From contig NZ_AP025739.1 of NCBI RefSeq assembly GCF_003574315.2, positions 2,294,001-2,358,000 on the forward strand: a DNA stretch of 64,000 nucleotides. The letters are read 5' to 3'. Source of the DNA: Capsulimonas corticalis. Lineage in GTDB: Bacteria; Armatimonadota; Armatimonadia; Armatimonadales; Capsulimonadaceae. The notes below the pieces were generated by a model that worked only from the letters and a program-made list of their open reading frames with translations, did not search any database and was not told where the DNA came from. The position numbers and the translations under genes are program-made. Below, piece after piece: positions 19,100 to 20,478 of the stretch (its first letter is position 1; the number at the start of each line of letters is the position of its first letter).

Positions 19100-19148
19100 T
19101 GCAAATCTGCAAATAAGACTTGATAATTCTACTACGGCGTGCTACGAT
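19100..19148 (+). promoter_or_regulatory. Promoter and direct repeats upstream of the AraC regulator
   Basis: TTGATA (19120-19125) and TACGAT (19143-19148) have a 17-base spacer, placing transcription start at about the ATG (19154), so the mRNA may be leaderless; no ribosome-binding site is visible. TGCAAAT occurs twice at 19100-19106 and 19108-19114, an 8-base direct repeat that could be a regulator half-site pair. Confidence 0.4.
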
Positions 19149-19153
19149 ACGCA

Positions 19154-19921
19154 ATGCACGCAAATGGAAGTTTATTGCACCAGGCTCCAAGCCCTTTTCG
19201 AAACGCCGGCGTCGCCATCGCGGCGATCGGGCAGGATTTCCCGTTTCACCAGGATCAATTCTGGGAGGTCATGTACCTGCGCAGCGGCCATATCACCTGC
19301 CAGCAGGGAGCGGAGCGCTTCGCGATGCACCCCGGCATGATCATTATTCACCCGCCGCGCGTGACGCATGCGGACTTCGCGACGACGGCGTATCTCACCT
19401 ACTATCTCTGGGTGGACTCCGATATGGCCGCCACGTGGCCGCGCTTGTGCTATGACGACGAGCATAAGAGCCTGGAGCGCGTCTGCCAGTCCGTTCTCCA
19501 GGAATGGGGCGCCCGAAACCCTGACCGAAACCGGATGCTGAGCTTGCTCTACGACCAGATGAATCTGCTGCTGACGCGGGAAAACAGCGTCAAATCCTCC
19601 GCCGGAGAAGCCGTCGTGGCGGCGGCGGAACAGGTAATGGAGGCCAACTACCGGGAAAAGCTGACCGTGGGGGAGGTCGCCCGGCGGATCGGGGCGTCTG
19701 CGTCCTCGCTGCACGCGCACTTCGCGCGTCTGCGCGGGCAGACGCCGATGGAGCGCCTCCAGGAGATCCGGCTCCGTCACGCCCTCGCCCAGTTGCACCA
19801 CACTACGCTGACCCTCGATTCCATCGCCACTCTCTGCGGCTACCATTCGGCCAGCCATCTCAGCCGCCATGTCAAGTCGGTCACCGGGGAAAGTCCGGGG
19901 CGGCTGCGCGTGCGCGAGTAA
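19154..19921 (+). CDS. AraC-family transcriptional regulator
   Basis: 255 residues from ATG 19154; an upstream GTG at 19139 is less likely because it overlaps the -10 box. The N-terminal cupin (FWEVMYLRSGHITCQQGAERF, HPGMIIIHPPRVTHAD) is followed by two helix-turn-helices (LTVGEVARRIGASASSLHAHF; TLDSIATLCGYHSASHLSRHF-like with TGESPGRLR). Its position, divergent from the prepilin and GH27 genes, suggests it activates them in response to a sugar. The architecture repeats at 61.2-64 kb. Confidence 0.9.
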   Translation: MHANGSLLHQAPSPFRNAGVAIAAIGQDFPFHQDQFWEVMYLRSGHITCQQGAERFAMHPGMIIIHPPRVTHADFATTAYLTYYLWVDSDMAATWPRLCYDDEHKSLERVCQSVLQEWGARNPDRNRMLSLLYDQMNLLLTRENSVKSSAGEAVVAAAEQVMEANYREKLTVGEVARRIGASASSLHAHFARLRGQTPMERLQEIRLRHALAQLHHTTLTLDSIATLCGYHSASHLSRHVKSVTGESPGRLRVRE

Positions 19922-19970
19922 CTTCATCCGTGGGTATATCCATACTGCACGACGGATGAAGGAGCAGCCC

Positions 19971-20288
19971 ATGGGTTTTGACCAATATCACGAGCCGGCC
20001 GATGAATTGCCGGATGAAGTACGGACCTTCGCGCGGATGATCGCGTCGCTGGGAGAAGAAGCGGAGGCGATCAACTGGTACGAACAGCGCATTTCCGTGG
20101 AGAAAGACAAAGACGCCGCCGCGATTATGCGCAATGCTCAGCTGGAGGAGTTCAAACACTTCGGCATGGATCTTGAATTTTTGCTGCGCCGCAAGCCGCA
20201 GTGGCGCAAGACCTTGCAGGGCATTCTGTTCCAGGACGGCGATATCGTCGAGAATGGCGAGCACGCCGAAGAAGACGCCGACAAGTAA
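19971..20288 (+). CDS. Encapsulated-ferritin-like protein (EncFtn family), orphan
   Basis: 105 residues from ATG 19971 (GAAGGAG upstream). Two helices carry EEAEAINWYEQR and NAQLEEFKHFGMDLEFLLRR. Aligned by eye with the Rhodospirillum rubrum EncFtn, Glu30, Glu60 and His63 match the ferroxidase ligands Glu32, Glu62 and His65; Glu29, Glu32 and Trp36 also match. EncFtn proteins form annular decamers that oxidise Fe(II) inside encapsulin shells. Here the tail is acidic (GEHAEEDADK) and shows no encapsulin-targeting peptide, and no shell gene is adjacent. Ferroxidase activity is inferred; iron storage is not. Confidence 0.85.
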   Translation: MGFDQYHEPADELPDEVRTFARMIASLGEEAEAINWYEQRISVEKDKDAAAIMRNAQLEEFKHFGMDLEFLLRRKPQWRKTLQGILFQDGDIVENGEHAEEDADK

Positions 20289-20478
20289 TATCGATGACCA
20301 TCGATCTCCGCGACGTCCTCGGGACCCAGCTCCCGGGGGCGTTTCTTTTCGCCCTCATGTTTTCACCGCGTAACCACTATCCACTTTCCCCGCAAACGTG
20401 CCGATAATAGACCGTCGTACAAAATTTGCACGCTGCTTTTCCCGTCGAATGAGGGAAGGGCGATTAACAGGCGGTTCC

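Follow-up and report, generated by a model that had tools for sequence, protein, structure and literature searches.

A candidate free ferroxidase of the EncFtn family in Capsulimonas corticalis represents a widespread clade of predicted shell-less proteins

What would a ferritin of the encapsulated type do in a cell that lacks an encapsulin shell? The question is raised by a gene in a 64,000-nucleotide stretch of the genome of Capsulimonas corticalis (phylum Armatimonadota; contig NZ_AP025739.1, positions 2,294,001 to 2,358,000), a stretch referred to here, as a whole, as the window. The initial annotation assigned the product of this gene (positions 19971 to 20288 of the window; hereafter the window protein) to the EncFtn family, and left the choice between a free ferroxidase and the cargo of a shell encoded elsewhere. 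We consider it likely that the window protein is a stand-alone cytoplasmic EncFtn-type ferroxidase that detoxifies Fe(II) without storage in a shell. Going beyond the initial annotation, sequence comparisons also indicate that it is a member of a large, conserved, multi-phylum clade and not an isolated oddity.

The family assignment itself is confirmed. The window protein matches the Pfam profile PF22277 (EncFtn-like) over its entire length (profile positions 1-85 of 85; 79.1 bits, E=2.2e-22, cut-off 27), and its best sequence matches in the PDB are 3k6c and 5da5, the solved relatives also including 5n5f. A monomeric AlphaFold2 model, built from an alignment of 62 sequences, has a mean pLDDT (predicted local distance difference test) of 94.9, with helices at residues 15-43, 47-74, 76-83 and 92-104, and superimposes on 3k6c, 5da5 and 5n5f with a root-mean-square deviation (rmsd) of 0.9-1.1 Å and TM scores to the target of 0.92-0.95 (Foldseek); among the matches listed by Foldseek, 50 of 50 are EncFtn chains (3k6c, 5da5 with its mutants, and 5n5f). 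VIA Z values reach 12.1-12.6 for the closest EncFtn entries versus at most 8.6 for unrelated ones; for small helical hairpins, values of this size are weak evidence alone, but here they agree with the sequence match. With two long and two short helices instead of the four-helix subunit of PF00210, the protein is not a classical ferritin, bacterioferritin (Bfr) or Dps. Searched with PF00210, the host genome yielded one match, a gene at 7453244 called Dps-like from its sequence, and the EncFtn gene remained unmatched.

The catalytic residues are likewise in place. In the EncFtn of Rhodospirillum rubrum the ferroxidase ligands are E32, E62, H65 and Y39, and E31 and E34 form the entry site (PMC5012862). 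Glu30, Glu60 and His63 of the window protein, the residues originally singled out as ferroxidase ligands, align with E32, E62 and H65, as do Y37 and W36 with Y39 and W38, and E29/E32 with the entry-site pair E31/E34. Across the 88 members of the clade described below, the window protein among them, E31, E32, W38, Y39, E61, E62 and H65 (R. rubrum numbering) are unchanged in all 88, and position 34 is a glutamate in 78.

We scanned GTDB contigs with seven armatimonadotan proteins and obtained 393 encoding loci, the best 80 of which, with 72-91% identity, were kept. These 80 come from Bacteroidota, Acidobacteriota, Pseudomonadota, Gemmatimonadota, Chloroflexota, Dormibacterota, Verrucomicrobiota, Planctomycetota, Actinomycetota and Armatimonadota, with one record labelled Patescibacteria; the carriers are mostly soil bacteria, and a relative at 91% identity is found in a Capsulimonas metagenome-assembled genome (MAG). 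A C-terminal targeting peptide (TP) is absent from the end of 79 of the 80 kept proteins, one of the 79 (L093) being cut by a contig end. More than half of the positions are invariant among the seven armatimonadotan members. Together these proteins form what we call the HFxM clade, which a long branch separates from the classical EncFtn proteins, including those of R. rubrum and NE0167 of Nitrosomonas europaea, with a support of 99 (100 when the PDB sequences are omitted) in a quick tree based on few columns. Within the clade the phyla are interleaved, and the window protein sits near sequences from Bacteroidota, which points to a spread of the gene by horizontal transfer. In Bradyrhizobium and Rhodopseudomonas the gene also occurs on conjugative plasmids, annotated merely as 'hypothetical protein'. 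Two IMG/VR contigs (L130, L131) carry an HFxM gene as well, at 78-82% identity.

Proteins of the EncFtn type without a TP are not new as such: they were named s-FLPs in a 2024 review (PMC11202242), and when the literature was searched for previous studies of the HFxM clade, that class was all that emerged. The window protein might hence be an ordinary s-FLP comparable to NE0167 and nothing separate, given that it is short and TP-less and finds its best structural match in 3k6c, and that TP-less classical EncFtns, likewise without a shell, are common in Alphaproteobacteria. We regard this as unlikely. NE0167 falls with the classical EncFtns, across the long branch from the HFxM proteins; the substitutions H57N/D, E64K, W72F and L33A, fixed or nearly fixed in the clade, are missing in NE0167-like proteins; and the PF22277 scores form separate bands (about 79-90 bits for HFxM versus 119-153 bits for classical proteins). 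Nor does TIGR04535, the profile of the encapsulin-associated subfamily, discriminate here: the window protein scores 80.5 bits, below the cut-off of 125, but this profile does not cover the HFxM clade, since the TP-bearing members L104 and L203 also stay under it (80.1 and 84.3 bits). On sequence grounds, then, the HFxM clade is a separate, widespread, highly conserved and apparently shell-less addition to the known TP-less EncFtn proteins.

As to the shell, profile searches of the 7,645,051-bp one-contig host genome, whose estimated completeness is 95.7% and in which this is the only EncFtn-like gene, revealed neither PF04454 (Linocin_M18) nor PF19307 (SrpI-like), the latter result disposing of a family-2 encapsulin; the PF04454 search was positive in three control genomes. 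The search for HK97-fold encapsulins that had been recommended with the initial annotation recovered only two PF05065 matches, both phage major head proteins (phrog_10). The two head protein genes lie at G000:C1:6401661-6402509 and 1796971-1797753, likely in prophages. The absence of a TP also stands, as the protein ends in GEHAEEDADK, which is not a TP; its acidic C-terminal tail is an ordered helix in the model and not a loose linker.

A broader survey reveals how closely tag and shell go together. Among 291 genomes of Armatimonadota, PF04454 is matched in 0 of the 7 with an HFxM gene, and the sole TP-bearing classical EncFtn of the phylum (L002, with RALTVGDLTRQG) has a shell gene in the same genome, on a different contig of a fragmented assembly. 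Another 38 genomes from other phyla comprise 34 without and 4 with a shell. The shells of Afipia, Parafilimonas and a Hyphomicrobiales MAG adjoin a DyP peroxidase that carries a GSLxIGSLK tag of its own; in the Thermoleophilia locus L104 the HFxM protein itself carries SLGIGSLREEVA and the shell gene follows directly 3', with an overlap of ~4 bases. Within 73 further genomes (including six of Sphingobacteriales without a readable locus), a shell was found in 13, precisely those with a TP-bearing EncFtn (L195 included), and in none with a TP-less EncFtn. Of the 13 tags, that of L197 (SSLGIGGKRGAQ) is degenerate. Altogether, 115 genes divide into 15 with TP and shell, 0 with TP and no shell, 3 with shell and no TP (all DyP cases) and 97 with neither. 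Fisher's test gives p = 1.5e-12 for a 69-gene subset, in a slightly conservative table that scores L199, located in the genome of L104 itself, as shell-less. The link is a strong pattern and not a test of independent events, because of the relatedness of the genes and the small number of phylogenetically independent pairs, two to three, which are concordant where the shell state differs but too few for significance; single shell absences are weak, as many of the genomes are drafts. In passing, a second, distant ferritin-like family of Armatimonadota (L011-L029), with weak PF22277 scores, repeats the tagged/untagged split of EncFtn: several members have TVGSL-type tags, some adjoin encapsulin genes, and L011-L015 lack both.

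The near-perfect co-occurrence of TP and shell across the 115 genes, and the absence of family-1 and family-2 encapsulins from a one-contig genome, thus make cargo of a shell elsewhere, the second option of the initial annotation, unlikely. The first is favoured: the window protein would work outside any shell, its ferroxidase activity being predicted from the conserved residues. The review cited above leaves the encapsulation of TP-less EncFtn proteins undecided (PMC11202242); none of the 100 TP-less genes surveyed could be assigned a shell, which suggests that 'free EncFtn' is a real and common state.

How such a free protein might act can be sketched from its modelled fold and aligned residues. 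Two-helix subunits would pair, with Glu30, Glu60 and His63 of both building a di-iron centre at the interface that Glu29/Glu32 would feed with Fe(II), and the pairs would probably assemble into the decameric ring of the family. The free cytoplasmic protein would oxidise excess Fe(II) and so limit Fenton chemistry, hold few Fe(III) ions and pass the product to other sinks, for example the Dps-like protein; alternatively, it may act alongside metal export, in either case with no iron mineralisation in a shell. Even in isolation from its shell, the R. rubrum decamer shows ferroxidase activity, and it binds at most ~48 Fe; alone it stores little iron and precipitates Fe(III), the shell keeping the product soluble (PMC5012862). 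From this behaviour a free relative may be expected to detoxify Fe(II) while storing little iron.

Some support for a metal-related role comes from the genomic context in Alphaproteobacteria, and only there. Two Bradyrhizobium plasmids have the HFxM gene divergent from mbfA (NF045676, 548 bits), and on these two plasmids only, a palindrome, TTTAGAAtgaTTCTAAA, which we take to be an Irr/ICE-type site, lies between the two genes near the mbfA start. The product of mbfA exports iron and is functionally linked to bacterioferritin (PMC4902296). A Rhodopseudomonas plasmid carries the HFxM gene inside an island for metal export. In Afipia and a Hyphomicrobiales MAG, a heavy-metal P-type ATPase gene precedes it by 42-48 bp, and genes for heavy-metal P-type ATPases and for CzcA-type RND and IhpAB exporters precede or border it in Afipia and on further plasmids. 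At the plasmid loci L239, L240, L241 and L242 (Rhodopseudomonas, Bradyrhizobium), the gene lies among metal-efflux genes or close to them, two of these loci being the ones with the divergent mbfA. A gene neighbourhood conserved across phyla was not found, synteny being mostly confined within genera except for these alphaproteobacterial contexts, and the upstream regions of HFxM genes gave no general signal of Fur or Irr boxes.

Several observations weigh against a free Fe(II)-detoxifying enzyme. Insoluble Fe(III), as produced by the R. rubrum protein without its shell, would by analogy be awkward in a cell. No recognisable iron-related neighbour occurs in the window or in most phyla, and the association with an AraC-type gene seen in the window is restricted to Capsulimonas. 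Moreover, the putative exit site H57, E61, E64 reads N/D/S, E, K in the 88 clade members and H, E, E in 34 of 34 others, and the changes at H57 and E64 may entail a different turnover. We also considered H57N/D plus E64K as a sign of shell-less life and rejected this idea, for the TP-bearing HFxM proteins of Actinomycetota share NAQ/DAQxEEFKHFxM.

The exit-site changes likewise feed the notion that the window protein binds metal in some other role, as an iron donor or chaperone, a redox sensor or a Zn/Cd stress protein, and is not a ferroxidase. The alphaproteobacterial contexts are not about iron alone, including Zn/Cd-type P-ATPases and divalent-metal export, and a cytochrome b561-type gene lies downstream of the HFxM gene on two plasmids. 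We nevertheless deem such a role rather improbable, given that the di-iron ligands and entry-site E31 are fully conserved across about ten phyla and that the plasmids pair the gene with mbfA. Far less credible is a shell that has escaped recognition, a phage-type capsid or divergent compartment addressed by the acidic C-terminal helix. Admittedly, the tail (GDIVxxGxxAEEA) is conserved and helical in the prediction, the host genome does encode two HK97-type capsids, and an unknown binding sequence in s-FLP tails is allowed for in the review (PMC11202242). Yet both capsids are phage head proteins, PF04454 occurs in only three of the TP-less genomes, always adjoining a TP-bearing DyP, and the TP-bearing relatives keep the same tail and then add a linker and an ordinary TP, so that the tail as such does not serve as the address in them. 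Finally, that the gene is a functionless remnant drifting after the loss of an encapsulin operon, as the lack of both shell and tag might suggest, is contradicted by the 72-91% identity across phyla, the invariance of more than half of the positions in the seven armatimonadotan members and the carriage on plasmids, and hardly deserves credence.

Free EncFtn ferroxidases are probably widespread, and a transition from the free to the caged state seems likely within the HFxM clade. The TP distribution requires at least three changes on the EncFtn tree, which is unrooted and has few columns, the best 80 of the 393 loci having been kept. The six TP-bearing HFxM proteins are all from Actinomycetota and cluster as a single nested group (support 93), with TP-less Verrucomicrobiota as neighbours. 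Their shells also form one clade (support 100), beside the shells of actinobacterial classical-EncFtn operons (join support 91). Cargo and shell histories thus disagree, because the HFxM cargo comes from a distant clade and the shells stand beside classical-EncFtn shells, a discordance consistent with an existing operon having taken up a free HFxM enzyme. Encapsulation would then be derived in the EncFtn family: on a single occasion an HFxM protein would have gained a TP, entered an actinobacterial operon for ferritin and encapsulin and replaced the classical EncFtn there; we put this forward tentatively, at somewhat short of an even chance. Alternatively, tags may have been lost elsewhere on the EncFtn tree. 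The HFxM clade holds natural pairs, with tag and shell versus neither, among close homologues, which make the contribution of a shell to a ferroxidase directly testable.

The locus in the window comprises the following features:
19139..19921, + strand, AraC-family regulator gene, 49 bp upstream of the EncFtn gene
19922..19961, + strand, perfect 10-bp inverted repeat CTTCATCCGT-N20-ACGGATGAAG, 3' arm overlapping the Shine-Dalgarno sequence, fold z = -2.27
19959..19964, + strand, Shine-Dalgarno sequence AAGGAG, with the ATG 6 nt downstream
19971..20288, + strand, EncFtn-fold ferroxidase gene (putative) of the HFxM clade, 105 aa, without TP
20312..20343, + strand, terminator-like hairpin of 13 pairs followed by TCTTTTC, between the EncFtn gene and the sensor kinase gene

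An alternative in-frame ATG lies upstream at 19869; the starts of homologues correspond to MGFDQYHEP of the window protein. The GC content of the gene is 56%, versus 63.6% for the window. The next gene is a sensor kinase, as annotated initially, namely a PAS histidine kinase belonging to a PAS kinase/response-regulator group. It is probably a separate transcription unit because the terminator-like hairpin intervenes, although such sites are no more frequent near the EncFtn gene than in shuffles of the region. A functional tie between the two genes is unsupported, the pairing not recurring elsewhere. It seems more likely that the EncFtn gene follows the AraC-type gene as its unit. The AraC neighbour is also present in a second Capsulimonas genome (L050), and the neighbourhood comparison found no conserved AraC-EncFtn link outside Capsulimonas. 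The inverted repeat lies between the AraC gene and the start of the EncFtn gene and may act on translation or as an operator. Upstream of its EncFtn gene, the L050 MAG has a partly similar, altered inverted-repeat arrangement.

Compared with known systems, the window protein shares with the EncFtn/FLP-TP proteins (R. rubrum Rru_A0973, 5da5; Haliangium ochraceum, 5n5f) the two-helix fold (rmsd about 1 Å), the E-E-H-Y ligands, the entry-site glutamates and the tryptophan-tyrosine pair, but it has neither TP nor shell gene, belongs to another clade (33-38% identity) and carries N and K at exit-site positions H57 and E64. The solved structure nearest to it is that of the s-FLP NE0167 (3k6c; 42% identity, Z 12.6), likewise TP-less and about 100 aa long. 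With an EncFtn fold, about 95-105 aa and no TP, the window protein has the traits of an s-FLP, yet not of the clade of NE0167, which has the classical HNRDEEKEH motif where the window protein has NAQLEEFKHFGMD, and its conserved acidic tail is longer and helical in the prediction. The encapsulated HFxM proteins of Actinomycetota (e.g. L104, L200-L203) agree with it in clade, motif and tail but add a linker and a TP (such as SLGIGSLRE) and adjoin an encapsulin gene, neither of which applies to the window protein. The MbfA/Bfr pair of Bradyrhizobium, whose Bfr is a 24-mer cage for iron storage, likely has a purpose in common with the window protein, the lowering of free Fe(II), achieved with unrelated architectures.
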